Below are positions 28,856 through 50,182 of a stretch of 64,000 nt of DNA, in pieces (within the stretch, counting starts at the first letter, position 1; each line of letters starts with the position of its first letter). The translations under genes were made by a program, and so were the position numbers. The notes beneath the pieces are model-generated. The model worked only from the letters and a program-made list of their open reading frames with translations. It was not told the origin of the DNA and did not search any database. This stretch comes from Sediminitomix flava (lineage in GTDB: Bacteria > Bacteroidota > Bacteroidia > Cytophagales > Flammeovirgaceae). The stretch covers positions 1 through 64,000 of the forward strand of contig NZ_QGDO01000003.1 in NCBI RefSeq assembly GCF_003149185.1, read 5' to 3'.

Positions 28856-28910
28856 TGTTGTATTTTTCTATTTTTGGATCAAATTACTTTATACCGTATG
28901 ATGAATTCTT

Positions 28911-28980
28911 TGCAAAGTAAGGCACTCTAATAGTGTGAATACGTTATAAAAAGGATGGATTTAGGTATAAAAAGAAAAGA
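28911..28980 (-). promoter_or_regulatory. Promoter plus class 1 AraC operator upstream of the DUF1254 pair
   Basis: Minus-strand -7-like TTACTTTGCA lies at 28911-28920. On the plus strand the words TTATAAAAAG (28944) and GTATAAAAAG (28965) are 21 bp apart, and the first begins about 30 bp from the -7 element. The same layout recurs at 41718, 45109 and 47115. The last word ends a few bases before the AraC start codon, so the AraC gene may repress itself. Confidence 0.5.
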
Positions 28981-28982
28981 CA

Positions 28983-29951
28983 ATGGAAAAGTCTTTAAGA
29001 TTTATAAATGGAGCACAAGCAGAAGAGTTAGTCGAAAACCTTAAGAAGGTCGGGAAACATACAATAACAAATAATCACTATAGGGCAGAGGGGGAAATAG
29101 GGTCTTTTGATATCTGGCTTTATGATGAATTAGAAACGCTATTACAGGTCTTCGTCTTTGACATCAGTTTGAATGAGCTATTTGAATTTGAAGATATTCA
29201 GACCAATGAAGATATTTATACAATTCGTTTTGCCTTGGGTGCAAAAGTAGATTATAGCGATACTCAGGTTGGCCATGGCTCACCTGTTGGAGCTGTAATT
29301 TACAATTCGGGGCAGACTATTAAGAATTACATTCAACCCAATCAGAGATTGAGAGGGGTAACATGCCGAGTAGAAAAGGCATTTTTAAAACGTATGTCTA
29401 AAGAAAATTGGAAGAACATTGAAGGATTCCTTAGCTTGAATAAACCTTGGATTTATTATGAATCAATTACTCCAGAGATGGAGCAATGTATACTAGATAT
29501 GCTTCAACTTCAACAAAACGTCAATGGGAGATACGGATTTACAACTGGAAAAATATTTGAATTAGTTACTCTTTTTTTCTTACAGTTTTTCTCGAATAGA
29601 TCCTTGAAAGCTTTCGCCTATATCTCTCCTAGGGACAAAGAAATTCTTTTTGAGATAAAAGATCGATTATTGTTCGACCTAACAAAGTCACTTTCGCTAC
29701 AGGAGTTAAGCAGAGATTATGGAATTAATATCGCTAAACTTAGAAATTTATTTTTTCAAGTATTTGGAAGTACACCGCTCCAGTTTGTGATGAAAGAAAG
29801 ATTATTTGAAGCTAAGCGTCAAATCATTATGACAAATAAATCAATTACTGAGATTGCTGATATTACAGGGTTTACAGATACCTCTCATTTGGGAAAATTA
29901 TATAGACGAGAGTTTGGAGTAGCACCATTAGTACATCGGAAAAGGAAATGA
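28983..29951 (+). CDS. AraC-family transcriptional regulator (paralogue of the one at 45179)
   Basis: The protein has 322 residues: an unrecognised N-terminal sensor domain and a C-terminal AraC domain (LSRDYGINIAKLRNLFFQVF, ITEIADITGFTDTSHLGKLY). It pairs by sequence with the regulator at 45179, sharing YNSGQ/FNSGQ-IK, MEQC and QFVMKERL motifs. It is divergent from the second DUF1254 pair, with a class 1 operator directly upstream of its own start codon. The likely role is activation of the DUF1254 pair in response to an unknown small molecule. Confidence 0.9.
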   Translation: MEKSLRFINGAQAEELVENLKKVGKHTITNNHYRAEGEIGSFDIWLYDELETLLQVFVFDISLNELFEFEDIQTNEDIYTIRFALGAKVDYSDTQVGHGSPVGAVIYNSGQTIKNYIQPNQRLRGVTCRVEKAFLKRMSKENWKNIEGFLSLNKPWIYYESITPEMEQCILDMLQLQQNVNGRYGFTTGKIFELVTLFFLQFFSNRSLKAFAYISPRDKEILFEIKDRLLFDLTKSLSLQELSRDYGINIAKLRNLFFQVFGSTPLQFVMKERLFEAKRQIIMTNKSITEIADITGFTDTSHLGKLYRREFGVAPLVHRKRK

Positions 29952-30088
29952 AATTTAAGAAATTCCACACCTCATAGGAAGAAGTGGTTGAGTAGGAGAA
30001 AAAAGTATTTTAATAGATAAAGTAAGGTCTTACATGTACTTGTATTATAATTTTAAAAGAATCGTGGGCTTTTGAAGTCCTAAGATAA

Positions 30089-30117
30089 AGAGACTACTCT
30101 GAGCAGGAGCAGTCTCT
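30089..30117. terminator. Hairpin between convergent AraC and DUF3604 genes
   Basis: AGAGACTACTC (30089-30099) pairs with GAGCAGTCTCT (30107-30117), one mismatch, between the two convergent stop codons. Confidence 0.6.
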
Positions 30118-30153
30118 CAATACTGTATATTGGAGTGTAAAGGTGTAAGTTAA

Positions 30154-32025
30154 TTACTTTGCGTTGTACCAAATTGGTGATGCATATGCTCTTTCTTGTG
30201 TTTCCAACTTAATACCTTCACCTACTTCAGCACCAAATTGAACTTTGTCATAAAGTGTCCAACGTGGAGTTGGAATTTCTAAAACTCTTACATAGTAGAA
30301 TGCATTTTGTGATGCATCAAACTCTGGATCTTCCCAGTAAGTTGTCAATTCTTCAGCACCAATATCGTTTGTGTAAGTTGCATTATCATAATCGATAGTC
30401 GATCCAACATTCGTCTCACAAACACCTGTATTGTTGATCACACGGTTGTCTGAAACTGCTGCGTCAAATACTTTTTCAAAAGTGTTACCATCAGCATCAA
30501 TCCAACCTTTAATCACTTGAACACGGTCTAAGTTTGCACCGTCAGGGTCTTTTTGAGCTCTGATCATGAAACCTGGCTTTTGGCCATTATTAGCTTCCAA
30601 ATCACCACCCATTGGTACACCTTTAGCGTAACCGTTATCTACCAAATTATCGAGATCGCTTTCTGAGAAATCATATCCACCAAATACACGAACTGACATA
30701 CGAGTACCTGAAGTAGCATACACTTCTTTACGCTCCATTGCGTCAAAGATTGACTCACGAGTGTTCTCCTTAGCCCAAACAGCACAAAGACCACCTGCAC
30801 CGTTTTCACCACGGAAAATAGAAAGTTCTTCTTTGATTCCTTTTACCATGATACCGTCAGCACGTCCTGGACTTGGCTCCATGAAAGCTCCCTTACCGAA
30901 ATAGTTTTCATTTCTTTGAGATGAGATACCACCGTGTGCATCAGTCGAGCCTATCATACCAAATTTGTAAGGGTTAATGCCTAACTTATGCTCAATCTTA
31001 AGACCTTCCAAGTAAGCATAACGTGCGTATTCCTTGTATAGCATTTCTTCTGTTTTTTCTACAGAACCCATCATGTTACCACGCGACATTGTCACGAAAT
31101 CAGCAAACTGATCGTCTGGCGAAATCATTGGGTGAGCTTCTGAGTCACCTTTCATTTGAGAAACTTCAACAATTGTTTCAAAACGGCTTCTTGTTTCTAC
31201 CCACTCTCTTGTTAACTCATGACCTTCGTAAGTTTTGTCATCAAACATTAATCCGTTTGAGAAGTTCGGGTTGTGAGGAATAGCCAATACACGACCTCCA
31301 GTTGTTTCCTCATACTCCTCTAAGAATTTCCACATATCTTCAGGATTTCCAGAATCAAAGGCAGAATAAGGGAAATATTGAAGAGCTTCCTCTGCACCGT
31401 CTCTAAAAATTAAGTTTCTGTGTAAGTTATTTGAGTTTGGTGCTGACGTAAATTCATAACCAATGAATGTAGTAAATTTACCTGGCTCATAGTATTTTTC
31501 AGCATTATCAATTACTTTACCCCAAATATTTTCTACCATTTCTGGAACGTTAATTTGGTCTGTATTGATATTACGTGCCCACTCTAAATAAACATCGTAA
31601 CCTTGGCCGTTTTTCACCATTTCAATCCAACGTCTACCAGTCTCACTCTTTTTAAGAAGTGGATCTTCGTTACGGATAAAATCTGCAAGACCTAGGTTCT
31701 CTGAATGATCTGAAAGTAAAACGAAATCAAGTGGACGAATTAATTTAAATTTATAACCTGATTGAGAAGTAACTTCTTCTCCTCTAGCTGCTCTGTAAGC
31801 AACATCAGGCCCTACATTAATTCCTAACATTCCTGCGTCAGTTGACCAAGAAGTATGGAAGTGAGTATCACCAAATAGCGGCTTGTCATAATTTTCTGGA
31901 AGTGGCCCCGGATCAAAATCTCCGATATATGGAGAGTATTCTCTTACTTCCTCTTGCTTTGCGTCTTGTGCCGTACAAGACAAGAAAGTTCCTGCTGCTA
32001 GTATTAGAGTTAATAAGTTTTTCAT
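30154..32025 (-). CDS. DUF3604 lipoprotein with PHP-like metal site
   Basis: The protein has 623 residues with a lipoprotein signal (Cys17, TFLSC). It has the DUF3604 family pattern. Visible candidate metal ligands resemble those of the PHP phosphoesterase superfamily: H55-F-H57 in FGDTHFHTSWSTD, D106-H107 in LLSDHSE, E191 in GYEF, H202 in NLHRN, H251 in AIPHNP, E287, and D362-x-H364 in GSTDAHGG. This supports a secreted metal-dependent hydrolase, though no substrate is established for the family. It is divergent from the AraC gene at 32300 across a 274-bp region with a class 2 operator. Confidence 0.87.
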   Translation of the reverse strand: MKNLLTLILAAGTFLSCTAQDAKQEEVREYSPYIGDFDPGPLPENYDKPLFGDTHFHTSWSTDAGMLGINVGPDVAYRAARGEEVTSQSGYKFKLIRPLDFVLLSDHSENLGLADFIRNEDPLLKKSETGRRWIEMVKNGQGYDVYLEWARNINTDQINVPEMVENIWGKVIDNAEKYYEPGKFTTFIGYEFTSAPNSNNLHRNLIFRDGAEEALQYFPYSAFDSGNPEDMWKFLEEYEETTGGRVLAIPHNPNFSNGLMFDDKTYEGHELTREWVETRSRFETIVEVSQMKGDSEAHPMISPDDQFADFVTMSRGNMMGSVEKTEEMLYKEYARYAYLEGLKIEHKLGINPYKFGMIGSTDAHGGISSQRNENYFGKGAFMEPSPGRADGIMVKGIKEELSIFRGENGAGGLCAVWAKENTRESIFDAMERKEVYATSGTRMSVRVFGGYDFSESDLDNLVDNGYAKGVPMGGDLEANNGQKPGFMIRAQKDPDGANLDRVQVIKGWIDADGNTFEKVFDAAVSDNRVINNTGVCETNVGSTIDYDNATYTNDIGAEELTTYWEDPEFDASQNAFYYVRVLEIPTPRWTLYDKVQFGAEVGEGIKLETQERAYASPIWYNAK

Positions 32026-32109
32026 TTGTATTTAGAGATTTTATGAATTGATGATCAATAGTTCATTAGGTAGATATTTGAATAATTATCTCCTTTAGTT
32101 ATTATTGAT

Positions 32110-32176
32110 AGTACAAATGTCGCGGTCTGATAAACCATATTCGCTTCCAAAAAGACCACAACTAATCCCCAAAAGC
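32110..32176 (-). promoter_or_regulatory. Promoter and class 2 AraC operator upstream of the DUF3604 gene
   Basis: Plus-strand words TCCAAAAAG (32146-32154) and CCCCAAAAG (32167-32175) lie about 21 bp apart within a region that also has a minus-strand -7-like ACATTTGTA (32112-32120). The word CCAAAAAGAC also occurs upstream of the TonB receptor gene at 39015. Confidence 0.4.
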
Positions 32177-32299
32177 TCATGTTATTTGACAGTTGTATAG
32201 GAAGAAATACTAGTTTGATTGTCTTTCAATAAAAAATCTGTTCTTCAACAAAATTAGCTTGATGTATTATTAAAAATCAGAGCTCAACTAAACAGGTAC

Positions 32300-33283
32300 A
32301 TGGATACATTTAATCTTAACTTTAAGGAAGGTATGACTATAAATTTAGTAGAGGGTCTACTTCGAGAGTTTGGTGGGGAATTTATAGATAATTATCAATA
32401 CAGATATAAGAAAGGGAAATCGAAAATTGAATTTGATATTTATACCTTCTTGGGGCAGTTTGAGATATTATTGATTGAATTTATTTCTGACATTAATTTC
32501 ACAACGTCCAGAACTTCTGATGATGATCCTGAATTAATTCATGTCAACTTGATTAAAAATGGAGAGATCAATCATTTTTTTGAGGATAAAAAAGAGTTCT
32601 TAAAAGCTGATAGCCGGAAGAGAGTATTGCTTCATAATGGATTGTTTGAAATCAATAATTTTGTTCCCGCAAATACAAACGTACAAACCGTCGGGTTTCG
32701 TTTCTCAAAGAAGGTGTTTAAAGAAATAATGCCTGAATATATCAAGGAATTAAATGATCTTTTTCCTGAGAATGAGGGAATAGCCTATCACACAGCTTTA
32801 CCAGCAGAACTGATAAATTTATTGGATGAAATGTTTTATCTAAAAAATGAATCTTTAAAACCTACTCCACTTATTTTAGCAAAGGGGATTGAAATTTTAG
32901 CCAAACTTTTTGATTCAGTAATTAACCTAAGAAAAGAAGACGATTTTAATGGTTTACATATTCATGATTATCAGAGGCTTTTAGAGATTAGAAAAAAACT
33001 AGTTTCGAGTTTAGATCAGAAAATTGTACTGAGCGATTTGGCTAAAGAGTTTGGTGTAAGCGTATCAAAACTTAAAAGAGATTTTAAAACACTATTCAAT
33101 ACTTCTGTCTATCAATATCACCTCCAAGTGAAAATGGATGAAGCAATGCGGAGATTAAAAAGTGGTGCGTATTCAATTTTAGAGATCAGCTTGGATTTGG
33201 GATATGAAACCCCTTCTAAATTTTCACAGATGTTTAAGAAAATCAAAGGGGTGAACCCGAAAGAGATTTTGCCTAAGAAATAA
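32300..33283 (+). CDS. AraC-family transcriptional regulator (paralogue of the one at 19470)
   Basis: The protein has 327 residues. It matches the regulator at 19470 through both the sensor and DNA-binding domains (LAKEFGVSVSKLKRDFK, ILEISLDLGYETPSKFSQMF). It is divergent from the DUF3604 gene and convergent with the xus-like operon. Class 2 operator words occur upstream of the DUF3604 gene and also upstream of the TonB receptor, so it may control both; AraC regulators next to siderophore receptors are common, but this link is inference. Confidence 0.9.
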   Translation: MDTFNLNFKEGMTINLVEGLLREFGGEFIDNYQYRYKKGKSKIEFDIYTFLGQFEILLIEFISDINFTTSRTSDDDPELIHVNLIKNGEINHFFEDKKEFLKADSRKRVLLHNGLFEINNFVPANTNVQTVGFRFSKKVFKEIMPEYIKELNDLFPENEGIAYHTALPAELINLLDEMFYLKNESLKPTPLILAKGIEILAKLFDSVINLRKEDDFNGLHIHDYQRLLEIRKKLVSSLDQKIVLSDLAKEFGVSVSKLKRDFKTLFNTSVYQYHLQVKMDEAMRRLKSGAYSILEISLDLGYETPSKFSQMFKKIKGVNPKEILPKK

Positions 33284-33423
33284 TTGATCATTATTAGTCG
33301 TAGAATTAAGTTATAACTAATTATGATCTGAATTTTATGGTAAAGCAATCAAACTAAATGACTGTATTGAATTCTCTAGGACCTCTTTTTAATCTCGATC
33401 AGTTGTCATTCATGCGCATTGAC

Positions 33424-34614
33424 TTATAGTTTCCTTAGCCATATTAGTAGCCCTGTGATAGGCAATGAACATCCAACCATAGTAACAATGAAATAGAAAA
33501 TGACTCCTGAAAGCCCAAATATTTCACCTGTATGTAAGGGTAGTGAAACAGTCTTAAATTGATCAGCAATTGTAAGGTCAGAGAACAATATAGCCTTTTT
33601 AAATTCTCCTTTTTGATTGTAGATGATTTGATCAGGAACTATAAGATTCATCAACCCCTCTTGCTTGATTTTTGTAATCTCAATTTCTGTTTTATCATTT
33701 ACAGCTAATGCTATAGATGTACTCCCATTGTATGCTAAACGTTGATTGACATCTTTCAGAAGAGGATCAATAGAAATAGATTGTGAGCCTTTTTCTTTAT
33801 GCTGAATATTCATTGATTCCTCTAAAAAAGAAGCAAAGGTGTCTGAAAGTTTATGTTGTACATCTTCCTTATTGGATATATTTAAAACAGGCTGACCACC
33901 CAGTGAAACTAAAATAGTACTTTTTACCCAAGGGTAAGCAATGTATAAGCCCGTGATGGAAATAAAAACTAAAGGAAATAAGAAATAAAACCCAATGACT
34001 TTGTGGAGGTCATAAATAACTCTAGGTAGTTTTGCAGACCATTTCACTTTCAAATTTGTTTTTAGTTGCCTCTTATTCTTGGGAAACCAAAGTACAATTC
34101 CAGAAAACAAAAGAAATACAAAAATGAATACCGAAATACCAACAATCTGTTTCCCTACTTCACCTAAGAACAGGTTTTTATGTAAAGTTTTTACCGTTTG
34201 AAAAAAGTGAGTGGTAGAGACATATTTTTTCCCAATTACCTCTCCGTTTGATGGATGAATGTAAATGCTTTCTTTTTTGTTTGACCCCTTATTTTGATAG
34301 GAAACGAATATATTTCGATTAAAATCAGCAGGGTAGTCAATTGAAATAACTTCAAGTCCGTTCCTTGTGAAATCATTAATAATAGCATCTGGTTTTACCC
34401 ATTCTTTTAGCTCCCTGTCTTTATTAAAGACTACACTATAATTTAATAGTTCAGTGATTTGTTTTTTGAACGCAAACATTGCACCTGAAAAACAGACAAC
34501 GATCAAAACAATACTGGAAAGTAGTCCAAGCCACAAATGTGACATGGACATTATGTACTTTAACCTTGTTTCGTTGTTTCTCTTCTTGCGAAATAGAGAT
34601 TTTGAGACTTTCAT
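33424..34614 (-). CDS. xusC: PepSY-associated transmembrane protein, XusC-like
   Basis: The protein has 396 residues with four predicted membrane helices (about 22-48, 162-182, 210-235, 370-394) and PepSY-type extracytoplasmic regions (for example ITELLNYSVVFNKD and SIYIHPSNGEVIGKKY). PepSY-TM proteins in iron loci are thought to help reduce or release iron from siderophores. The gene is last in a receptor, DUF4374, lipoprotein, PepSY series like xusABC of Bacteroides. Its ATG overlaps the upstream stop codon (TAATG), so translation is coupled. The xus name rests on gene order and domain type. Confidence 0.75.
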   Translation of the reverse strand: MKVSKSLFRKKRNNETRLKYIMSMSHLWLGLLSSIVLIVVCFSGAMFAFKKQITELLNYSVVFNKDRELKEWVKPDAIINDFTRNGLEVISIDYPADFNRNIFVSYQNKGSNKKESIYIHPSNGEVIGKKYVSTTHFFQTVKTLHKNLFLGEVGKQIVGISVFIFVFLLFSGIVLWFPKNKRQLKTNLKVKWSAKLPRVIYDLHKVIGFYFLFPLVFISITGLYIAYPWVKSTILVSLGGQPVLNISNKEDVQHKLSDTFASFLEESMNIQHKEKGSQSISIDPLLKDVNQRLAYNGSTSIALAVNDKTEIEITKIKQEGLMNLIVPDQIIYNQKGEFKKAILFSDLTIADQFKTVSLPLHTGEIFGLSGVIFYFIVTMVGCSLPITGLLIWLRKL

Positions 34615-35231
34615 TACTTGGAACTAAATTGACCTCTATATCCCTCTTTCTTCGTTAGTTCAATGTATTGCTTATATTGTTCCTCAGAAAATAACTTCTT
34701 AAGAGCAGAATTTCTTGATTCGTTGAATTGATTCCAATACATAGATGCAGTTTCTCTGTTGCCATGAAATCTATCATGAGCATCATGGAATGCATTCAGA
34801 AAGGCATAATTAATGGCAGTATATTGCTCTGTCTGATCCGTATCTAGGGCTAGTTTTTCAATTACTTCTGCTTTTAATTCATCAGAATAATCTACAACAC
34901 CTGGCATATATCTTTTGATAAATTCATGAGCAATCACTTTTTGTTGATCATCTAAAATACCTTCTAAAACATGTTCTTGGTATTTGTAGGAGTCTTGTAA
35001 CATCTTGTTTATTTCTTCTTTAGAATTATTTCCATATAATTCTAAATCAGCTAACATGAGATCTCTATCACCTTCAAAAGCGAGGATAATTTCATCATAT
35101 GGTATTTTCTGATCTTCTGTTAGATTTAATTGCTGTTTTAATAAATCGAAATCCATTCTTGATTTCTTTTTTTGTTCCGTACAAGAAAATAAAACAGTGA
35201 TAGTAGCGATTGTAAGAAGTATTTTTTTCAT
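34614..35231 (-). CDS. Small lipoprotein of the iron-uptake operon, Spy/CpxP-like features
   Basis: The protein has 205 residues with lipobox Cys17 (TVLFSC). The mature part is helical and has repeated L-L--DQ type motifs (LNLTEDQKIPYDEI, LALDTDQTEQY, LFSEEQYKQYIEL) reminiscent of the LTxxQ signature of periplasmic Spy/CpxP/ZraP-type proteins, several of which sense or bind metals. It also carries a His/Asp-rich stretch (NAFHDAHDRFHGN). It sits between the DUF4374 and PepSY genes, where the Bacteroides xus operon has none. A metal-binding or chaperone role is inference from position and motif. Confidence 0.65.
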   Translation of the reverse strand: MKKILLTIATITVLFSCTEQKKKSRMDFDLLKQQLNLTEDQKIPYDEIILAFEGDRDLMLADLELYGNNSKEEINKMLQDSYKYQEHVLEGILDDQQKVIAHEFIKRYMPGVVDYSDELKAEVIEKLALDTDQTEQYTAINYAFLNAFHDAHDRFHGNRETASMYWNQFNESRNSALKKLFSEEQYKQYIELTKKEGYRGQFSSK

Positions 35232-35269
35232 TCTGATTGATTTTGAAAAGTTAATTTGAAACTGATATT

Positions 35270-36514
35270 TTATTTATAAATTCCTTGGACGTAAATATTT
35301 CCGCCGTCTAGTTTTGCGCCTTTCCTAGTTTTGTATCCATCAAATTCCCAAATGTAAGCTTCAGCTCCGATAGGGCTTATTGCTATGTGAAATTTACCTT
35401 CATGAACTGCACCCGATTGGTAGAACCACATATCTGATTTGGGTACATCATGAAGTATTTCTATCTCCTGTTTTTCTACATCGATATATGCCATATCATA
35501 GGAATTATTATGATCAATACTGATATCATCTATAGCGATATATCCTCTACCATTGCCTACGTGGTGCCAGTTGATCGTTCCTACTGATTGGCCTAACTGA
35601 TTTGCAATATTGAAGACATAGTTTTGATCATATTCACCTTCTCTATTTAATCTTAAAATCACTGCATCAGAGCCTTCAGTCGTCATGTTAACTTGATAAA
35701 TATGATTGTTATACACATACATCGATTTACCTCTGTAGCCATAGGTATCACCGATTGAAGCATCGGATGTTACGATTTTATAATTCTCTAAACTTGGGTA
35801 ATCTACTACTAGCGTTGCCATTTCATCTGGACGTTCGGTATTTGGTTCACCATTGTTAGGCTGACCTAATAATCGGTATTGTGTGCCATAGAAAAGTTTA
35901 TTGCCCATAATCACTGGAGCATCAACTCTATTGACATAAGCTTCACCAATTTTATAAGTCCCCAAATCATGTTCTACAAAATCCGTAGTGGCATTAAAAT
36001 ACAAACCTGGAATACTGATTTTTACAATTTGTAGTGTAACAGTAACTTCCGTGTTTTCTTCATTAAAAGTTTCGACCACATTATGTGCTAAAAGCATATT
36101 ATCACTTATTTCAGCATACCTTGGGTGAGTACCCACTAAATGACTGATATCGATCTCACTTACTTTATTATAACTTGAGGTTCCATTATGTTCTAATTCA
36201 TAAATTTGACCTGTTCCATAATTCAAATTATAAATTCTTCCTCCTGCTGTTAAGACTCTTGCAGAACGCTCACCATCCATCTCATAACCATTATTGATAA
36301 ACGTTAGGGTAGTGTCTGTAACATTAGTAGTGGGTTGCATAAACACAGAAACATTTTCATCTGGATCTGTTACATCTGTAGCCACATGAAAGACATCTTT
36401 TACCATAGGTCGATCTCCTTCAAAACCTTTATTATCTTCTGAGCAAGAAGTTAAGCATGTTGCGATTGCTAGAATGCCTAAGGCAATCTTTTTTGTTGTA
36501 TTTGTAACTAACAT
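35270..36514 (-). CDS. xusB: DUF4374 surface lipoprotein, XusB-like
   Basis: The protein has 414 residues with lipobox Cys24 (TCLTSCSEDN). The rest has the beta-propeller-like repeats expected of DUF4374. In Bacteroides thetaiotaomicron the DUF4374 protein XusB binds siderophores at the surface and works with the TonB receptor XusA; that is from the literature as I recall it. Here the gene follows the receptor gene by 37 bp and precedes the small lipoprotein by 38 bp, so one operon is likely. Proposed role: capture of ferric siderophore. Confidence 0.8.
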   Translation of the reverse strand: MLVTNTTKKIALGILAIATCLTSCSEDNKGFEGDRPMVKDVFHVATDVTDPDENVSVFMQPTTNVTDTTLTFINNGYEMDGERSARVLTAGGRIYNLNYGTGQIYELEHNGTSSYNKVSEIDISHLVGTHPRYAEISDNMLLAHNVVETFNEENTEVTVTLQIVKISIPGLYFNATTDFVEHDLGTYKIGEAYVNRVDAPVIMGNKLFYGTQYRLLGQPNNGEPNTERPDEMATLVVDYPSLENYKIVTSDASIGDTYGYRGKSMYVYNNHIYQVNMTTEGSDAVILRLNREGEYDQNYVFNIANQLGQSVGTINWHHVGNGRGYIAIDDISIDHNNSYDMAYIDVEKQEIEILHDVPKSDMWFYQSGAVHEGKFHIAISPIGAEAYIWEFDGYKTRKGAKLDGGNIYVQGIYK

Positions 36515-36551
36515 GAAAGTTTTTTTTGATTGTATTTATTTGTTTAGTCTA

Positions 36552-38909: not shown

Positions 38910-38957
38910 ATGGTTAGTAAATACTCAAGAAGCATAAGATTGATAGTTTTTATTACA

Positions 38958-39024: not shown

Positions 39025-39027
39025 ATG

Positions 39028-39066
39028 AAAAAAACCGAAGAAAAGATAGATTCTGCTTTTCTTCGG
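39028..39066 (-). terminator. Intrinsic terminator of the barrel protein gene
   Basis: CCGAAGAAAAG (39035-39045) and CTTTTCTTCGG (39056-39066) form a perfect 11-bp stem. On the minus strand it is followed by a run of seven T (39028-39034). It separates the barrel gene from the receptor operon. Confidence 0.85.
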
Positions 39067-39096
39067 AGTGGAATAGACATTTGGATATATAGGTTT

Positions 39097-39834
39097 TTAG
39101 AAAGAATAACCTACCCCCAGTTGAAGATTTAGGTTTCTCATCCAGCTATTCTCAACTGTAGAAGTATTTATGTTGTTTAGCCCAAAAATAGTGCGTCCAC
39201 CAATATGGAAATTAGAATTAGGAATAGCGTATTGTAAACCCAATGCAAAACTCATGTCTATGGTTTTGAATTTTGTCTGATTTACTAAAGCGTTGATGTC
39301 ATCTGTGATATCTATTTCTGTATCTATAGATCCATTATCTAAATATTCTCGATAAATAGCAGAGCCGTTATAATTTATTTTTGTACGGCTTAGAAAGCCA
39401 ACGATCACACCACCTTCTAGTGCCCAGTTTTTATTTTTACCCATAGCATACTGTACGACTAATGGAATAGATAAGTATTCAGTTCTAATATTTAAACGAC
39501 CATCCAATTCAACAGAAAACTTATCATCGTCTAGGTCTGGATCTAGGTCAGAAGCATACATCGATTCGTACATATCTAATAAACCAAATACGCCGTGTTG
39601 CCCATATTGTATTTCGGCTTGAATTGCCCATCTATCATTGATCTTATAATTGCTATAAAGACCTCCGAATCCGCCAAATAGAAAGCCTCCATCGTCAGGG
39701 TTAGCGACTAAAATAGCAGATGTATTCATACCTCCTTTAAGGCCAAATGTAAAAGGTGATTGTTTTTCTTGTGCCATAGATGTTGTCCACATCGTGAAGC
39801 AGAACAATGATAAAATTAGAGTTCGTAAGTTCAT
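39097..39834 (-). CDS. Outer-membrane beta-barrel protein, PorT-like family
   Basis: The protein has 245 residues with a signal peptide ending near TSMAQ. The mature part starts FTFGLKGGMNTSAI, typical of small Bacteroidota barrels (outer membrane beta-barrel/PorT-like), and ends in LGVGYSF with the terminal Phe used for barrel insertion. It follows the ferric-reductase-like gene by 65 bp. No substrate can be read from sequence; a role in the iron locus is suggested only by position. Confidence 0.75.
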   Translation of the reverse strand: MNLRTLILSLFCFTMWTTSMAQEKQSPFTFGLKGGMNTSAILVANPDDGGFLFGGFGGLYSNYKINDRWAIQAEIQYGQHGVFGLLDMYESMYASDLDPDLDDDKFSVELDGRLNIRTEYLSIPLVVQYAMGKNKNWALEGGVIVGFLSRTKINYNGSAIYREYLDNGSIDTEIDITDDINALVNQTKFKTIDMSFALGLQYAIPNSNFHIGGRTIFGLNNINTSTVENSWMRNLNLQLGVGYSF

Positions 39835-39899
39835 TTATTTTAAAGTTTAAGAAATAGGATATAGTTGCTATTATTTCATCTGTTTATAGAGGTGAATAC

Positions 39900-40550
39900 T
39901 CAAGTTTTTCTTCCTACAATATTTATGAAGTAGCTGAAGCTGAAACAAATAATGCCGATAAGGCTAATAGGTGGTAGACCTCCATACCATTTTTCTGGTG
40001 TCATCCATCCGTTTAGGCCCATAAAGAAAAGGTGTATTCCTCCTGTGATCGTGGCTGTAAGGATAAACTTTCGGGAACGGAAGAATGCTATGAATTGGCG
40101 TTCTTCTTTTAATGATGTCTTGAAAACAGAATCATATACCCATAGCAGGATAAAACCAATAATACCTCCAAGTAGACTAATTCCGCCACTAAGAGTTAAA
40201 GTACCATTTTCTAAGAAGAACTGTTTATACACTGTGGGGGTGAATAATAGAACGCTCATGCATACATGGACTAGTGTAAGTAGAAAGACTATAGTACCAA
40301 TGCCTTTTCTTGCATTCATGAATTTCTGAGGAACATTTATACCTAAGTTTTGTATTGGCCCAATTGAAAAATTGATACAAAGAAGTATAAATGCACTGAG
40401 TGCAATTCCTTTATTCAGTATATAGATAGGTAGATCTTTCCATAATATTTCTCCTAGTATATGATATCTAATAATGGCGTATGCTATAGAAATAAAACAG
40501 CTGATTATAATGATCTCTGTTGCTTTTGATTTCTCTTTCCTTGTATTCAT
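39900..40550 (-). CDS. Ferric-reductase-like heme membrane protein
   Basis: The protein has 216 residues with about six membrane helices. His95 (LTLVHVCMS) and His173 (GGIHLFFMG) lie in separate helices as expected for heme ligands of the ferric-reductase-like/MsrQ-type membrane domain; His30 (IRYHIL) is a further candidate. There is no flavin domain, so electrons must come from a partner. Its position next to a siderophore receptor operon suggests iron reduction after uptake. It lies between two barrel-protein genes on the same strand. Confidence 0.7.
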   Translation of the reverse strand: MNTRKEKSKATEIIIISCFISIAYAIIRYHILGEILWKDLPIYILNKGIALSAFILLCINFSIGPIQNLGINVPQKFMNARKGIGTIVFLLTLVHVCMSVLLFTPTVYKQFFLENGTLTLSGGISLLGGIIGFILLWVYDSVFKTSLKEERQFIAFFRSRKFILTATITGGIHLFFMGLNGWMTPEKWYGGLPPISLIGIICFSFSYFINIVGRKT

Positions 40551-40645
40551 ACTATGATATAATTTTCTGTAAAGGTCGAATTTGAAGAACAGTTCATAGT
40601 ACCTTGATGAAGGTAGATAGACTATTGTTTTAGTCTTTGTAAACT

Positions 40646-41323
40646 TTAAAATGTAGCTCCGAATACGAAGTGAAACACATTTGTATCAGGATTGTAAAGT
40701 CCGCCCCAAAACAGTGACAATGATCTGGACTCAGTGTATTTTATCTCTATGTTTTTCACTAAACTTAGGTTGACAATATAAAACTCACCTTCAGAAGTAT
40801 AATCTCTATTTCCAGCTCCAATAACGAATTCAAAACCTTTGTAATTATATCCACTTTCCAAATATAGATGATGGTCTTCATTGAGGTTCATAAAGCATCC
40901 GAAGTAGAAATTTTTAAAGTTTTGAATAAGGCCTAACTCAATAGAGTGCCCATAAAAGGATATATTTTCTTCTCTTGAAAAACCTTTTTTTACCGTATCA
41001 ATAAGAGCAGTCGAATAATAATAGTCTGTTAGTAGAATAGTCATTCCTAATCGCTCAAAAGTATAACCTAGTCTATATTCAAATTCAGTTGTGTTATTCT
41101 TTTTAAATAAAGCATAACTTCCCCATCCTCCGATAAAGAATCCATGATATGAAATTAAGAGGTCAGGTTGTATTGCAGGGCTGTTTCCATAATCAATGCC
41201 TCTCCATACATACCGACTCACAAACTCTACACCTAGTTCTAGTTTGAGTTTGTCTTGTGCATTTAAAGTAGCAGTGCCAATAGTCATTTTTAAGAATAGA
41301 ATATAAATCCAAAGTTTTTTCAC
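40646..41323 (-). CDS. TorF-like putative outer-membrane porin
   Basis: The protein has 225 residues with a signal peptide ending near ATLNAQ. The motif SRYVWRGIDYGNSPAIQPDL is characteristic of the TorF family of putative porins. The rest alternates in beta-strands and ends in FGATF. It is the first gene of the three-gene minus-strand run 41323-39097. A class 1 operator and minus-strand promoter lie 390 bp upstream, which would give a long leader containing a hairpin. Confidence 0.7.
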   Translation of the reverse strand: MKKLWIYILFLKMTIGTATLNAQDKLKLELGVEFVSRYVWRGIDYGNSPAIQPDLLISYHGFFIGGWGSYALFKKNNTTEFEYRLGYTFERLGMTILLTDYYYSTALIDTVKKGFSREENISFYGHSIELGLIQNFKNFYFGCFMNLNEDHHLYLESGYNYKGFEFVIGAGNRDYTSEGEFYIVNLSLVKNIEIKYTESRSLSLFWGGLYNPDTNVFHFVFGATF

Positions 41324-41546
41324 ATCTGTTGGTTTAAAATATTGAGAGGGTAAAATGAAACTGATCAGGTCTCATTTACCCAACTCAAAACATCAAATCA
41401 AAGCAAGTTTAATTCTAATCGCGCTTCACATTCAGCTGTCATAAGCATCCTGAGAAGGAAATCAACTAAAGTCTCAACATCTACTCTGGATTTTCAACAA
41501 ACAAATATTTTAAATTCAATCTTATCGAGTCTTAGTACTTGAAGAG

Positions 41547-41594
41547 CATAAAGGGCTTCTTTAGTCTAATGAAAGACCAAAGAAGTACCCTTTC
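41547..41594. terminator. Long hairpin in the leader of the TorF-like gene
   Basis: AAAGGGCTTCTTTAGTC pairs with GACCAAAGAAGTACCCTTT over about 17 positions with one bulge and one G-U pair. It lies about 125 bp downstream of the minus-strand promoter at 41718, so it may end or attenuate that transcript before the TorF-like gene. Confidence 0.5.
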
Positions 41595-41717
41595 TTACCA
41601 CCTATCAAGTTTAGTGTTTAATAGTGTTGTATTATGGTTAGGCTTAACAAACTAAATTAATAAAACGACTTCGGTACAGTGTAGCTGAAACGACTCATAC
41701 ATTGTACTCCTTATTTG

Positions 41718-41783
41718 ATTACAAAGTAAGTGGGTTTTGCTCTAAGACTTTGGGAAAAAAGAGTGCGATTTCGGTAAAAAAAT
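41718..41783 (-). promoter_or_regulatory. Minus-strand promoter with class 1 AraC operator
   Basis: Plus-strand ACAAAGTA (41721-41728) gives TTACTTTGTA on the minus strand. TTTGGGAAAAAAG (41749) and TTTCGGTAAAAAA (41769) follow at the spacing seen at 45109. The direction points to the TorF-like gene, 390 bp away, not to GH3. Confidence 0.45.
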
Positions 41784-42022
41784 GCTGTTCGAAAGTCAGT
41801 ATGTTAGATTCTTGATAAGAAATTTTTTGAAGGAATAGGAGGGGCGTTTTTTCTGTCAATTTAAAGACACTGGTCAAGTGAAGTTACATACTTGTGGTTT
41901 ATCATATTTGTTTTCAGTGGGTTGTGGGGTTGTCCTTATTTTGTCCATGGCTTATTTTTCTGATTCTTTTTCTTGAACTGTACATTCCAAAAAGTTTTAA
42001 TCAACACATAATTTTTTGAAAC

Positions 42023-44602
42023 ATGGTACAGAAAAATTTGATATACTTTTTAATACTACTCTTGAGTAGTTCAACGGTATATGCTCAAGATTGGAGAAAT
42101 CCGGAAATGCCTCTTGAGAAAAGAGTAGATGACCTCTTGTCAGAGATGACTTTAGAAGAGAAAATTAGTTATTGTGGGTCGGTTATTCCTGCTATCGAAC
42201 GTTTAGGCATCCCTAGGTTTGAGTGGTATGGAGAGGCCTTGCACGGTATCATAGGATGGAATTGTACACAGTTTCCTCAGAATATAGCCATGGGTAGCAC
42301 TTGGAATCCTGATCTGATGTTTGATGTAGCTACTGCAATTTCAAATGAAGCGAGAGCATTAAAAAATCAAGGGAAAAAAGAAGTGATGATGTTTTCACCT
42401 ACGGTAAATATGGCACGTGACCCTCGTTGGGGACGAAATGGCGAATGCTACAGTGAAGACCCATTCTTGATGTCTGAAATGGCTAGAATGTATATCAGAG
42501 GAATGCAAGGGAATGACCCGAAGTATATGAAGACAGTTACGACGGTAAAACATTACATTGCTAATAATGTCGATAAAGGACGTGAATTCATTCATTCTAA
42601 TATCAATAAGAAAGACCTGTACGAATATTATTTTCCAGCTTACAAGACATGTATCGTAGATGAGGAAGCGACAGGAATTATGACAGCCTTAAATGGTTTG
42701 AATGGTATACCTTGTTCGGCACATGATTGGTTGGTGAATGGTGTGTTGAGAGAGGAGTGGGGCTTTGAGGGTTATGTGATAGCCGACTGGGCTGCTGTGG
42801 GAGGTATAGAGAAAAATATGAAATATACCGATACACAGGCCAAAGCTGCTGCTTTAGCTATTCAGGCAGGTGTCGATCAAGAATGTTTTAGAAATAAAAA
42901 AAGGTTTGCACCTATGGTCGTTGCTTTGAAAACGGCTATTGAAGAAAATCATCTGACTGAAGAGGAATTAGATGTATCTGTAAAAAGATTGCTAAGACTA
43001 CGTTTTATGACAGGTGATTTTGATGATCCTTCCCTAAATCCTTATTCACAAATTCCTAATTCAGTACTCGAATGTGATGCGCATAAAAAACTGGCTCTTA
43101 AGGCCGCAGAGCAGAGTATTGTATTACTGAAAAATGATGATATTTTACCTTTATCGAAGGATGTCGAAAACTTGGCCGTAATTGGTCCTTTTGCTGACCG
43201 TTGTTGGATGGGAATTTATTCGGGCTTTCCTAAAAGTAAAATCACGCCTTTAGACGGAATCAAGAATCATGTAAATGCAAAGGTGAGTTATGCCGAAGGC
43301 TGTGCTGTAAATGCCGATGAGAACGATAAAACAAAAATTGCAGAAGCGGTAGCTTTAGCTAAAAAATCGGATTATGTAGTGCTTTTAGTCGGAAATGATG
43401 AAACTACATCTACAGAAAATGTCGATAGGAAATCATTGAAATTGCCGGGTAATCAGCATCAATTGATCAAAGAAGTACAAGCTGTAAATGACAATGTGAT
43501 TTTGGTTTTGGTACCAAGCGGCCCTACGGCTATTTCTTGGGAACAAGAACATGTTTCTGGAATTGTATGTGCTTGGCCAAACGGACAAGAGCAAGGAACA
43601 GCATTGGCAAATGTATTATTTGGAGATGTGAATCCAGGTGGAAAACTCAATGCAACTTGGTATCAGTCGGATGATGATCTTCCAGATTTTCATAATTATT
43701 CCATTCAAAGTGGACGCACGTATATGTATTTTGAAGGAGAACCATTATATCCTTTTGGTTATGGCTTAAGCTATACTGACTTTCAGTTTGATGAATTAGA
43801 ACTGACTAAAAAGAAGCTAGATGTTATGGATGACCTCCAAGTAACAACTAAAGTAAGTAATATTGGAAGTAAAGATGGAGATGAAGTAGTACAAGTCTAC
43901 ATCAGAGACACAAAGGCAACTGAAAGAGTACCTCTAAAAGTACTTAAAGGTTTTGAGCGTGTTCATATACCGGCAGGAGAAAGTAAGTCGGTACAAATAA
44001 GGGTGCCTTATGAAGCGTTTGCTTTCTACGATACCCTACAAAACAAGTACAGAGTAGAAGAAGGAAAATTTGAGATCTTAGTAGGTAATTCAAGTACAAA
44101 TATTACTGCATCTAAAAAAGTATTTGTAACAGGTGGGGATATTCCTGTAAGTAGATTAGGGGAGAAGAAGAGTGCTTACTTTGATGCCAAAGATGAGAAT
44201 CGAATTAAAAAGTGGGATCATTTATACGATGATAATAATGGCATAATTGTAAGCTCAATCAAAGAAGAAGATAATTCTGAATGGGTTGAGTATGAAATCG
44301 TATTTTCTGATCCAGGTTTCTATGTAAATACTTGGGATGCCGAATTGAGTTTTAAATCCGCAGCGAAAGGTTCTGTTATTGAAACTTCAATGGCAGGGGC
44401 AAAAATCAATTCTTATGAAGTGCCTCAAAACTTAACCATTCCAATCAAGATTCCGATTCCACCAGAATATGATAAAGCTGTTCGTTTTAGAATCAAAACT
44501 TTAAAAGGAAATGTAGAACATCAATCCATTAAAATTATCCCTCCCGGAAATGTCAAAGCTTTTAGCATTGATAAAGTGGTGAAGAAGTCGAAACAGATTT
44601 AA
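42023..44602 (+). CDS. Secreted GH3 glycoside hydrolase (beta-glucosidase/beta-xylosidase type)
   Basis: The protein has 859 residues with a signal peptide ending near STVYAQ. The N-terminal GH3 barrel (about 30-330) has the family motifs FSPTVNMARDPRWGRNGE and TVKHYIANN, with the nucleophile Asp255 in GYVIADWAAVG. The alpha/beta sandwich (about 365-580) includes VVLLVGNDETTSTE, and a Fn3-like domain (about 615-695) follows. An added C-terminal domain (about 710-859) looks like a carbohydrate-binding module. Overall it resembles xylosidase/glucosidase GH3 enzymes of Bacteroidota. It is a single gene with its own terminator. Exact sugar specificity cannot be told from sequence. Confidence 0.92.
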   Translation: MVQKNLIYFLILLLSSSTVYAQDWRNPEMPLEKRVDDLLSEMTLEEKISYCGSVIPAIERLGIPRFEWYGEALHGIIGWNCTQFPQNIAMGSTWNPDLMFDVATAISNEARALKNQGKKEVMMFSPTVNMARDPRWGRNGECYSEDPFLMSEMARMYIRGMQGNDPKYMKTVTTVKHYIANNVDKGREFIHSNINKKDLYEYYFPAYKTCIVDEEATGIMTALNGLNGIPCSAHDWLVNGVLREEWGFEGYVIADWAAVGGIEKNMKYTDTQAKAAALAIQAGVDQECFRNKKRFAPMVVALKTAIEENHLTEEELDVSVKRLLRLRFMTGDFDDPSLNPYSQIPNSVLECDAHKKLALKAAEQSIVLLKNDDILPLSKDVENLAVIGPFADRCWMGIYSGFPKSKITPLDGIKNHVNAKVSYAEGCAVNADENDKTKIAEAVALAKKSDYVVLLVGNDETTSTENVDRKSLKLPGNQHQLIKEVQAVNDNVILVLVPSGPTAISWEQEHVSGIVCAWPNGQEQGTALANVLFGDVNPGGKLNATWYQSDDDLPDFHNYSIQSGRTYMYFEGEPLYPFGYGLSYTDFQFDELELTKKKLDVMDDLQVTTKVSNIGSKDGDEVVQVYIRDTKATERVPLKVLKGFERVHIPAGESKSVQIRVPYEAFAFYDTLQNKYRVEEGKFEILVGNSSTNITASKKVFVTGGDIPVSRLGEKKSAYFDAKDENRIKKWDHLYDDNNGIIVSSIKEEDNSEWVEYEIVFSDPGFYVNTWDAELSFKSAAKGSVIETSMAGAKINSYEVPQNLTIPIKIPIPPEYDKAVRFRIKTLKGNVEHQSIKIIPPGNVKAFSIDKVVKKSKQI

Positions 44603-44616
44603 ACCATTAAAGCATG

Positions 44617-44657
44617 TAAAAAGGTAGTAAGACAATCTAAGGCTTACTGCCTTTTTT
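44617..44657 (+). terminator. Intrinsic terminator of the GH3 gene
   Basis: AAAAAGGTAGTAAG (44618-44631) pairs with CTTACTGCCTTTTT (44643-44656) with one G-U pair; a T-tract is included. Confidence 0.8.
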
Positions 44658-44815
44658 ACTAAGCTACCCTAGAACTTGCGAAGTGATTTAAGGGCTAAGA
44701 AATAAAATTAAGTAATGGATGCAGTGTTTTAGATTCGAAGAATGAGTCAGTAAAAGTTGTGTGAAAATTCCGATCAAGAAATTTTTACAAAAAATAGTTG
44801 TCAAAGAATAAAACT

Positions 44816-44848
44816 AAAAAGAGCTCAAAGGTAATTTGAGCTCTTTTT
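44816..44848. terminator. Strong bidirectional terminator without an obvious owner
   Basis: AAAAAGAGCTCAAA (44816-44829) and TTTGAGCTCTTTTT (44835-44848) form a perfect 14-bp stem with a 5-nt loop and A/T tracts on both sides. Confidence 0.85.
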
Positions 44849-45109
44849 ACTAAAGCTTGAATACTTGATTCAAGACAATATCACAAAAGAAAACAAAGTG
44901 GGCTAAGGATATATTTTACACACTTCACTATAATCTAGCCCTATTTTGTTTTCAAGTAAATCTTTATTTTCTGATCATATATATCATTTAGGTTAAACAT
45001 ATATTTTCTCTATGTTGAAGATTGATAGCAAGGAATAATAGGTTCTTAAGTTACTTTTAAGGTACTGTGATTAAGGTCTTCTGTGTATTTTTTGTTCTTA
45101 TTATATGAC
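44816..45109 (-). ncRNA. Candidate short minus-strand transcript (promoter to terminator, no gene)
   Basis: A minus-strand promoter with class 1 operator (45109-45178) points into this stretch, and a 14-bp bidirectional terminator (44816-44848) closes it about 260 bp later. The GH3 gene already has its own terminator, so this one lacks an owner. The only frame of note is 19 codons (ATG at 45000, stop at 44941). This could be an AraC-controlled small RNA, a microprotein mRNA or the relic of a lost target gene. Confidence 0.3.
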
Positions 45110-45178
45110 TACAAAGTACGCCTGTTTTGGCGACAAGTATCGGTATAAAAAAGAAAGATTTCGGTAAAAAAGTATAGA
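45109..45178 (-). promoter_or_regulatory. Minus-strand promoter and class 1 operator directly before the AraC gene
   Basis: Plus-strand ACAAAGTA (45111-45118) gives minus-strand TACTTTGT. CGGTATAAAAAAG (45141) and CGGTAAAAAAG (45162) are exactly 21 bp apart, and the second reaches the AraC start codon at 45179. Confidence 0.5.
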
Positions 45179-46156
45179 ATGAAAAGGTATGGTTTTGATG
45201 ATCGTATTTCTGATTTTCAGATAATGAGGTTACTCAATCAGATAGGAGATGTAAAGGTTGATTGGAATCACTATTGTGCAAAAGGGGATTTGGGTGAATT
45301 CAATTTATGGTTGTACTCAGAGTTAGGGGAGTTACTACAAACATTGATTTTTGATATAAAATTAGAACAAGAATATATATTTGAAGATCATCAGAAAGAG
45401 CAAAACCTTTATATACTTGAGTTTTTTATAGATTCTGAAATCGATTATGGAGATAATATAGTTGGCGCAGGGCATACAATGGGTGCTGCTTTATTTAACT
45501 CGGGACAGATTATAAAAACAAGGGCTAATGCTGGAGAAAATTTAAAAGGAGTGACCTGTTATATTTCAGGTGATTTTATGAAAAAAACAGCAAAAGGCAA
45601 TTGGGATTTATTTCAGTCTGTCATTTCAGATTCAGGGCATTGGGTTGTTTTTGAATCATTGAATCTGGAAATGGAACAATGCTTAAAAGATATTTTTGCT
45701 TTACAAAACCTTTCAGCTTCTGGTAAAAATGGTTTTACACTCGCTAAAATTATAGAATTGATAAGCCATTTTTTTGTAAAATTCTACAATCGGAAGACAG
45801 GTTTAAGTGTATCAAATATTTCTGAAGAAGATAAGGAGATTATGTTTTCCATTAAAAATGATTTGTTACGCGACCTTACTGTACCTCCAACAATCAAGGA
45901 TTTAAGTAGAAAATACGGTATCAATGATGTGAAATTACGAGCTTCATTTATCAGTATCTTTGGGAGTTCTCCTCATCAATTTGTGATGAAAGAGCGTTTA
46001 CAGGAAGCCAGAAGAATGGTGAACCTGACTAATCTAAATATGACTGAAATATCAGATATGTTGGGGTTTACGGACTCTTCTCATTTTGCAAAACAGTACA
46101 GAAAAGAATATGGAATTGCTCCACTGAAAGAGAGAAAACGCAAGAAGCTATTTTAA
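45179..46156 (+). CDS. AraC-family transcriptional regulator (paralogue of the one at 28983)
   Basis: The protein has 325 residues with an unrecognised sensor domain and a C-terminal AraC domain (LSRKYGINDVKLRASF, MTEISDMLGFTDSSHFAKQY). It is paralogous to the regulator at 28983. Class 1 operator copies touch its start codon, so autoregulation is likely. Unlike the others it has no divergent protein gene; a class 1 operator instead precedes the convergent neighbour at 47085 and the TorF-like gene, its likely targets. Confidence 0.9.
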   Translation: MKRYGFDDRISDFQIMRLLNQIGDVKVDWNHYCAKGDLGEFNLWLYSELGELLQTLIFDIKLEQEYIFEDHQKEQNLYILEFFIDSEIDYGDNIVGAGHTMGAALFNSGQIIKTRANAGENLKGVTCYISGDFMKKTAKGNWDLFQSVISDSGHWVVFESLNLEMEQCLKDIFALQNLSASGKNGFTLAKIIELISHFFVKFYNRKTGLSVSNISEEDKEIMFSIKNDLLRDLTVPPTIKDLSRKYGINDVKLRASFISIFGSSPHQFVMKERLQEARRMVNLTNLNMTEISDMLGFTDSSHFAKQYRKEYGIAPLKERKRKKLF

Positions 46157-46166
46157 AGGACAGTTG

Positions 46167-46228
46167 AAAAAAGTTCTCCAAGATTTAGTAATCTTAGAAT
46201 TGGGGAATTCTTACTAAATCAGGAGAAC
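46167..46228. terminator. Long hairpin terminator between convergent genes
   Basis: GTTCTCC-GATTTAGTAA (46173-46191) pairs with TTACTAAATC-GGAGAAC (46211-46228) with a small internal loop, plus an inner GAATT/AATTC stem. Read on the minus strand it is followed by six T (46167-46172). Confidence 0.8.
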
Positions 46229-46278
46229 ATTCTAAAAGTTTGGATTAATTAATGGACGTAACAATGTGTAAAATCTGC

Positions 46279-47085
46279 TTATTTAGCAAAAACAAAAGTA
46301 GTCTGGAATCTCAATTCTCCATTTGCAGCATGATTAGGTTTTACAACATTATGGTAGTATTGTAGTCCTAAATTTAGGGGTAACTTTCCTCCTAAAAACA
46401 CGAGTTTATTGATTCCTCCACCAACTGGTACAGTCCATTTTTCTCCACTTTCAGCATTCCAGTTTGCCGTAATTGTCGGGAATGTGTTCACAACCCATCC
46501 TTTTCCAAGACCATAAGCAATAAGTGTTTGCCCCACAAAAGCATTTACGTCATGTCTATCGCTATTTCCAGCAAAAGAGGCTGTCTGACGAAAAATCATA
46601 TCAAATGTCCATCGTTTTGTCTGATAAACGAAAACAGCTGAAGCACCTGCACTCCATTTTTCTGTCCCCATTGCTGAATGAGAAGCCGTAGGAATATCAA
46701 TAGATGGACCTATACCCCATGCTAAATTTCCTAGTTTTTTCTTTGGCGAGAAGAAAAAGGAATAGTTTAAGTCTGTGACACCGAATTGTGACCCTCTTCC
46801 TTCTGTAGAAGAAGGTAAATGTGACATTCCCCAAACTGCTCTGTGTACGAGATTAAACTTCTCGAATTCGGTACCAATGATAGGCTGAAAGGACATTGTA
46901 TATGAAGCACCTTCATGTCCGGGTTTATTAAGTCCAATGTTTTGTTGGATTGGCAAAGCAATAATGCTAGCAAGCGGATTTTGTAATTTTTGAGCTAATT
47001 CATCCTGTTCGTTTTGTTGTGCATGAATCAGTGAGATTGAAAATAATGTAAGAAGTAAAGTGATGTATACTTTTTTGAAGTTCAT
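46279..47085 (-). CDS. Outer-membrane transporter-like protein, Phenol_MetA_deg-like family
   Basis: The protein has 268 residues with a signal peptide ending near SLIHAQ. Features include IALPIQQN-GLN, LNYSFFFSPKKKLGNLAWGI, GPSIDIPTASH and a terminal barrel strand ending FQTTFVFAK. These fit the Phenol_MetA_deg/transporter group of outer-membrane proteins found near catabolic and sulfatase genes, sometimes labelled only as transporter. It is a single gene, preceded by a class 1 AraC operator, so the AraC regulator at 45179 (convergent) is its likely controller. Cargo unknown. Confidence 0.6.
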   Translation of the reverse strand: MNFKKVYITLLLTLFSISLIHAQQNEQDELAQKLQNPLASIIALPIQQNIGLNKPGHEGASYTMSFQPIIGTEFEKFNLVHRAVWGMSHLPSSTEGRGSQFGVTDLNYSFFFSPKKKLGNLAWGIGPSIDIPTASHSAMGTEKWSAGASAVFVYQTKRWTFDMIFRQTASFAGNSDRHDVNAFVGQTLIAYGLGKGWVVNTFPTITANWNAESGEKWTVPVGGGINKLVFLGGKLPLNLGLQYYHNVVKPNHAANGELRFQTTFVFAK

Positions 47086-47114
47086 AATTGTAAGTTTATT
47101 TCGTTATGATTCGC

Positions 47115-47182
47115 TTACAAAAGTACGGGCTTTGGAGGAGGCTGATTTGTATAAAAAGGAGTCATTTCGGTATAAAAAAGAA
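47115..47182 (-). promoter_or_regulatory. Promoter and class 1 AraC operator of the outer-membrane protein gene
   Basis: Minus-strand TACTTTTG (47118-47125 region) fits TAnnTTTG, about 33 bp from the start codon. GTATAAAAAG (47149) and GTATAAAAAA (47170) are 21 bp apart on the plus strand, with TTTCGG directly before the second, as at 45159. Confidence 0.55.
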
Positions 47183-48768: not shown

Positions 48769-48789
48769 TTACTTTTAGTAATTCAGTTT

Positions 48790-50163: not shown

Positions 50164-50182
50164 TTTCTTAGTGTTTCAGCTC

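Follow-up and report, generated by a model that had tools for sequence, protein, structure and literature searches.

We analysed the first 64,000 nucleotides of contig NZ_QGDO01000003.1 of Sediminitomix flava (hereafter the window), in which four pairs of similar words, each pair a direct repeat, lie beside divergent promoters. These four double words are very probably the operators of two adjacent AraC-family regulators, which would activate the divergent promoters. Judged from sequence comparison, the conserved AraC-type operator set and its local regulon appear real, and they represent an ordinary kind of local gene-control circuit.

Reading and alignment of the four places recovered all four double words that an earlier sequence-only reading of this DNA had pointed out. 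Operator 1 (28942–28973, like the others on the + strand) carries the half-sites CGTTATAAAAA and AGGTATAAAAA and lies between the AraC gene at 28983 and a divergent pair of DUF1254 genes. Operator 2 (41751–41782) consists of TGGGAAAAAAG and CGGTAAAAAAA, where TGGGAAAAAAG at 41751 is the weakest first copy of the four. The second AraC gene has its start codon 6 bp past operator 3 (45141–45172; CGGTATAAAAA and CGGTAAAAAAG), and operator 4 (47147–47178) combines TTGTATAAAAA with CGGTATAAAAA. Taken as 11-bp copies, the half-sites start at 28942/28963, 41751/41772, 45141/45162 and 47147/47168, and the words resemble nGGTAWAAAAA. In the aligned sequences the period is exactly 21 bp in all four operators, with 10 nucleotides (N10) between the copies. 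Hence, the nearly constant spacing of about 21 bp reported earlier proved even stricter than described, but one start pair (41749/41769, or 20 bp) had been slightly misread. Two direct half-sites about 21 bp apart, as expected of an AraC-type direct-repeat operator, are thus present at all four sites. Half-site pairs scored 23.5–30.1 at a spacing of 21 and no more than 21.7 at other spacings from 12 to 42, in a scan that is partly circular as its matrix was built from five window words, including a word at 53405 that was later rejected. In addition to the four pairs, a lone half-site in the opposite orientation (CGGTATAAAGT, 28886–28896, − strand) was seen within the leader of the DUF1254 pair, where it might offer an additional repressor contact.

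The two regulator genes (28983–29951, + strand, 322 amino acids; 45179–46156, + strand, 325 amino acids) start 9 and 6 bp past the second copy of operators 1 and 3, and their products are 44% identical, in line with the claim that two paralogous AraC genes adjoin two of the sites. Both proteins contain the C-terminal AraC double helix-turn-helix (HTH) domain, with Pfam HTH_18 E-values of 4.3e-16 for the 28983 protein and 2.7e-16 for the 45179 protein (59.4 and 60.1 bits; cut-off 33.6). In both regulators Pfam detected the AraC HTH only, with no match to an N-terminal domain. A structural model of the 45179 protein, the only one of the two that was modelled (15 sequences, predicted local distance difference test (pLDDT) 83), has a predicted fold like that of the ToxT/Rns type. 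Its top Foldseek matches were CsvR (4e-10), Rns (1e-9) and ToxT (2e-9); yet, it differs from these proteins in sequence (12–17% identity), in whole-chain template modelling (TM) score (~0.3) and in the placement of its domains. The N-terminal region of the model comprises predicted strands and helices, with weaker Foldseek matches to cupins such as oxalate decarboxylase. In a phylogenetic tree, both window proteins group with Flammeovirga regulators (support 100/99). Since the four sites are alike, cross-binding of the two AraC proteins to these operators is plausible.

A minus-strand TACTTTG-type −7 element had been noted beside each pair, and this was seen at all four places, with TTTG lying 25 bp off the first copy. 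The box TACTTTG (CAAAGTA on the + strand) occurs on the − strand at 28913–28919, as the promoter of the DUF1254 genes, at 41722–41728, ~390 bp ahead of a TorF-like gene, and at 45112–45118, with no minus-strand gene downstream before 44602. The fourth box, TACTTTTG at 47118–47125 on the − strand (CAAAAGTA on the + strand), is the promoter of the outer-membrane gene at 46279–47085. When related sites from other genomes were included, CAAA, representing the divergent −7 box TTTG, was located exactly 25 bp from the first half-site in 20 of 21 sites (four of the five window words and all 16 sites in relatives). The only miss was the word at 53405, and any other listed gap was common to at most three sites. 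The 20 sites that share the 25-bp gap have 20 distinct flanks, but some of them are orthologous and, hence, they do not represent 20 independent events. According to excerpts of PMC7366714, Bacteroides promoters carry TAnnTTTG at −7 and TTTG at about −33; combined with the 25-bp gap, this layout would put the proximal half-site at or just upstream of −33. A proximal half-site at −33/−35 whose distance from the core promoter is fixed, as in class II promoters, was found for all four operators and for 20 of the 21 sites, the transcription starts being predicted ones. This position, at or just upstream of −33, is the place of sigma-contacting activators such as AraC and RhaS.

These features suggest the following mechanism. 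An AraC-family dimer would occupy the two half-sites, which, at 21 bp or two helical turns apart, face the same side of the double helix. The nearer half-site would end 25 bp before the −7 TTTG, which places it at −33 or slightly upstream, and because of this location the bound dimer would be able to take over from a weak −33 element and bring in the primary sigma factor, as in AraC-type class II activation. In this way, it would turn on the two DUF1254 genes of the pair, the TorF-like porin and the outer-membrane protein encoded at 46279–47085. Operators 1 and 3 lie inside the presumed leaders of the AraC genes, 6–9 bp before the start codons, where binding would lower the expression of the regulators themselves. 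Some autoregulatory damping is therefore to be expected, and the operator copies beside the AraC genes probably also serve autoregulation. We infer that the 28983 and 45179 proteins bind these sites, that activation prevails over repression, that the regulators control their own genes, and that a small ligand is held by the cupin-like N-terminal domain. That this ligand is lipophilic is a guess, made from the ToxT/Rns-like fold of the model.

Alternatively, the AraC proteins might use the same operators chiefly to repress the divergent promoters and their own genes. AraC-type proteins can repress in the absence of ligand, and the short distance (10 bp at most) from operators 1 and 3 to the AraC start codons would suit such a role. 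However, the operators lie upstream of the −7 box and not over it, and the constant distance of 25 bp (20 of 21 sites) is the position of an activator that touches sigma. We therefore regard a mainly repressive function as unlikely.

Another concern is that AT-rich DNA filled with A-tracts might yield four look-alike pairs by chance. The single words would fit this explanation. When at most two mismatches are allowed, the window contains 35 copies of the word CGGTATAAAAA, and 27.9 would be expected; this is not a significant enrichment because 14 of 100 shuffles equal or exceed this number. As the single word is not enriched, the whole case depends on the pair. The pair pattern with at most three mismatches was found at 44 places in the 6.6-Mb genome versus 41 in the reversed control, so that loose matches to the pair are noise, which again would agree with chance. 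The best places genome-wide, on the other hand, concentrate in the window, which holds all three places with one mismatch and five of the eight with at most two mismatches (these five include 53406). Among the 30 of the 44 places that were checked, all five window places are intergenic, and the other 25 comprise 19 inside open reading frames (ORFs) of at least 100 amino acids and six intergenic places.

A motif was also built from 12 sites of Flammeovirga genomes, without any window sequence. These 12 sites had been located with the matrix of window words, and hence the motif is independent in its letters but not in site discovery. When applied to the own 6.6-Mb genome, in a scan that took 150 of 16,475 first-look candidates through full scoring, the Flammeovirga motif placed 41749, 47146 and 45142 (operators 2, 4 and 3) at ranks 1, 2 and 3 and 28944 (operator 1) at rank 5 of 64 matches. 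Within the window, the four operators scored 27.5, 26.4, 26.3 and 21.5 bits and the next place only 4.7 bits, while the maximum over 60 random windows was 17.0 bits. A genome scan had been named earlier as a check on the double motif; the pattern scan, the Flammeovirga motif and the random windows all indicate that its positions are nonrandom. Given this cross-genus test and the −7 box at an unchanging distance in 20 of 21 sites, a chance origin of the four pairs is extremely improbable.

A fifth look-alike at 53405/53426 (+ strand) was first grouped with the four operators, as it has only two mismatches, and was then rejected. It lacks CAAA at 25 bp, scores −11.2 bits (rank 133) with the Flammeovirga motif, and is absent from the 64 genome matches. 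This look-alike (53405–53436) precedes two small ORFs and an ABC/HlyD/OEP export operon (47341–52372).

The regulators and their sites are shared with the sister genus Flammeovirga. In a comparison of 38 genomes, own genome included, the window genome and four of the nine Flammeovirga genomes contained close relatives of the 45179 protein (E < 1e-86), and the next genome had an E-value of 1e-32. A search of contigs with one protein gave no loci. The same kind of search with an alignment gave 79 loci, of which the first six are all close relatives from Flammeovirga, and for the others the match lies mainly in the HTH; the Flammeovirga records were sp. OC4, F. aprica and sp. SJP92. The target genes recur in these loci as well. 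Loci L061, L064 and L065 contain a DUF1254/DUF1214 pair with a double site and an AraC gene in divergent orientation; there, the first gene of the pair is 59–62% and the second gene 63–66% identical to its window counterpart. A TorF-like barrel stands behind a double site in L061, L062, L063 and L067 and is 52–54% identical to the 40646–41323 protein; Pfam detected Gcw_chp in the barrels of L062 and L063 but not in that of L061. Likewise, a barrel behind the same site in L061, L062 and L064 is 63–65% identical to the 46279–47085 protein. A site in L061 also precedes a cupin protein, with an Omp85-like protein after it. Moreover, in both genera the site of the DUF1254 pair keeps a first half of its own type (GTTATAAAAA, GTTGTAAAAA or GTTGCAAAAA); in L061 and L064, the counterpart sites next to this pair have the first half GTTRTAAAAA. 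At L061:7745–8692, a site of the same class is directed at a shortened AraC gene (146 amino acids, HTH only), and one AraC protein may control another in this locus.

The presumed targets in the window are all encoded on the − strand. The first gene behind operator 1 (27461–28855) encodes a DUF1254/DUF1214 protein related to VPA0106 (3u07, E 1.5e-33), and the second gene of the pair (26036–27439), also a DUF1254/DUF1214 gene, is the one with 63–66% identity to the second genes of the Flammeovirga pairs. The presumed target of operator 2 is a TorF-like putative porin (40646–41323), with a Pfam Gcw_chp score of 27.5 bits (cut-off 24) and an NCBIfam TorF score of 31.4 bits, which is below the cut-off of 47.15. 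Operator 4 would control a predicted outer-membrane barrel (46279–47085), for which no Pfam or NCBIfam family was found at an E-value of 0.01; its structural model consists mostly of strands but has low confidence (pLDDT 51, three sequences). The sequence-only reading had proposed a regulon of DUF1254, TorF-like and Phenol_MetA-like genes. The DUF1254, TorF-like and outer-membrane genes are supported by the same sites beside their homologues in Flammeovirga, but the label Phenol_MetA-like is unsupported, as no family match was obtained.

Does the geometry extend beyond these two regulators? Among 23 long AraC paralogues of the own genome, drawn from 30 of 61 matches, eight have CAAA, a gap of 25 bp and a period of 21 bp with at least 9 of 13 identities, against a mean of 0.21 and a maximum of 3 in 100 shuffled sets. 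A score of 8 within one base of this 25/21 geometry was reached by 10 of the 23 paralogues (shuffles: mean 1.38, maximum 5). At 9 of 13 identities, the grid has its highest count at the 25/21 combination, although the period stands out over the gap, and gaps of 24–26 bp were tied when an 11-base block was used. In the Flammeovirga genome G014, 4 of 21 AraC genes fall in the 25/21 cell (shuffles: mean 0.35, maximum 3). The half-site sequences vary from paralogue to paralogue. Genes divergent from the ten paralogues and from the AraC gene at 19470 encode DUF1254 proteins (at 28983 and three more paralogues), two sulfatases, an alkyl sulfatase and a DUF3604 protein, and the same set includes one divergent barrel that is 24% identical to the 46279–47085 protein; for two of the ten paralogues plus AraC 19470, no divergent neighbour was seen. 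Another AraC gene, at 24522, adjoins two more DUF1254 genes, and no 25/21 site was found upstream of it. These two further DUF1254/DUF1214 genes (21438–24330, − strand) are divergent from AraC gene 24522.

The paralogues also bear on the possibility that the repeats are extended promoter elements, i.e. UP- or −33-like A-tracts that RNA polymerase reads without any AraC protein. The half-sites are indeed A-rich and stand at a fixed distance from the −7 box. Yet, the best matches to the double motif in the 6.6-Mb genome cluster in the window, the sites adjoin AraC genes of one subfamily in two genera, and other AraC paralogues combine different half-sites with a similar geometry. We therefore consider polymerase-read elements very improbable and retain the activator operators as our explanation.

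Several observations weigh against these operators and their proposed role. The sites of the 25-bp rule were chosen by eye from repeat scores, before the distances to the −7 box were counted, and several are mutually orthologous. The reverse test, in which the five window words were compared with the nine genomes of the genus Flammeovirga, was weak (best E 0.0025); its top match and at least six others are already known sites, mixed with matches at chance level. This test was weakened by one probably false word (53405) in the window alignment and model. Furthermore, three Flammeovirga AraC genes (L062, L063, L064) have no full site upstream, and the tree gives no firm pairing of each window AraC protein with one Flammeovirga group. 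For the paralogues, the fullest cell at 8 of 13 identities is a gap of 19 bp (11 of 23) versus nine at a gap of 25 bp, and in G014 other gaps at period 21 equal or exceed the gap of 25 bp. Finally, two of the four promoters are odd. The TorF-like gene lies ~390 bp past promoter 41722 with a strong hairpin between them, and promoter 45112 reads into no gene before 44602.

Possibly, promoters 45112 and 41722 yield short AraC-dependent RNAs instead of mRNAs. No minus-strand ORF of at least 20 amino acids lies wholly within 41444–41718 or 44805–45111, and both stretches contain hairpins. Downstream of promoter 45112 there is a terminator-like hairpin at 44849–44815 (− strand), and the TorF-like leader has a hairpin at ~41550–41600, within a stretch (41545–41714, − strand) that folds with −40.6 kcal/mol (z −2.06). 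However, Rfam gave no match at gathering thresholds to known RNA elements in 28000–54000, the region behind promoter 45112 (44910–45104) does not fold clearly better than its shuffles (z −1.15, with 23 of 200 folding as well), and transcription from 41722 may do no more than supply the TorF-like gene with a long leader. Short RNAs as the products of these two promoters are, in our view, doubtful. As predicted, the transcript from promoter 45112 would be a short RNA only (45104–44815, − strand), ending at the terminator-like hairpin. In the 41545–41714 leader (− strand), a possible 16-codon ORF after AAGGAG was noted by eye. In L061, AraC gene, site and TorF-like barrel adjoin directly. Both oddities of the window could be explained if a GH3 gene and its surroundings had been inserted between an ancestral AraC gene and its porin. 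Such an insertion would leave promoter 45112 without a gene and the TorF-like gene far from its promoter.

The proposed operators resemble known systems in several respects. In E. coli, the araI1-I2 operator of araC/araBAD consists of two direct half-sites 21 bp apart by the promoter, and the regulator gene is divergent from its target. The operators of S. flava share the 21-bp direct half-sites next to the promoter and the divergent regulator gene, but they differ in half-site sequence and in the Bacteroidota −7 promoter, and no distant looping site was identified here. AraC-family proteins are described in excerpts of PMC9723621 as symmetric dimers on direct repeats. Direct repeats that are on average 21 bp apart are already known for the AraC-type hybrid two-component systems (HTCS) of Bacteroides, also in the Bacteroidota, where two-site repeats lie upstream of adjacent targets (excerpts of PMC3878776). 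In contrast to HTCS, the regulators studied here have 322–325 amino acids and no histidine kinase, receiver or periplasmic sensor according to Pfam, and hence do not belong to that class. The targets of HTCS are polysaccharide loci, whereas DUF1254 proteins and barrels are found here, and a fixed distance to the −7 box is not mentioned in the excerpts of PMC3878776. In a literature search that covered few subscription journals, no description of the present regulon was found, and the excerpts of PMC11253607 contain nothing on these operators.

Our results offer a clear-cut regulon, open to experiment, for DUF1254/DUF1214 proteins and barrels. The 25-bp distance seen in this group may provide a simple rule for finding operators in other Bacteroidota. 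Other AraC paralogues appear to keep the promoter geometry while differing half-sites stand by their own genes, and therefore the sites can be read from sequence, which offers a way to learn how AraC proteins choose their DNA. The value of the system thus lies in its clean geometry and a readable paralogue code. More tentatively, and with more doubt than confidence, we suggest that an expanded Flammeovirga-group subfamily of cupin-AraC proteins uses one rigid 25/21 architecture with paralogue-specific half-sites beside its own genes, and that the family senses lipophilic or sulfated compounds via a ToxT/Rns-like pocket. The suggested ligands would fit the divergent targets, which are DUF1254 proteins, sulfatases, an alkyl sulfatase and an outer-membrane barrel. 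If true, the genome would label its own AraC DNA-recognition code.

A possible second class of sites with the same geometry was seen at the AraC genes 19470 and 32300. There, the words AGGTTC/AAGTTC (19295–19358) and CCAAAAAG/CCCAAAAG (32114–32176) recur with a period of 21 bp, ~25 bp from a divergent CAAA, and these sites precede an alkyl sulfatase and a DUF3604 gene.

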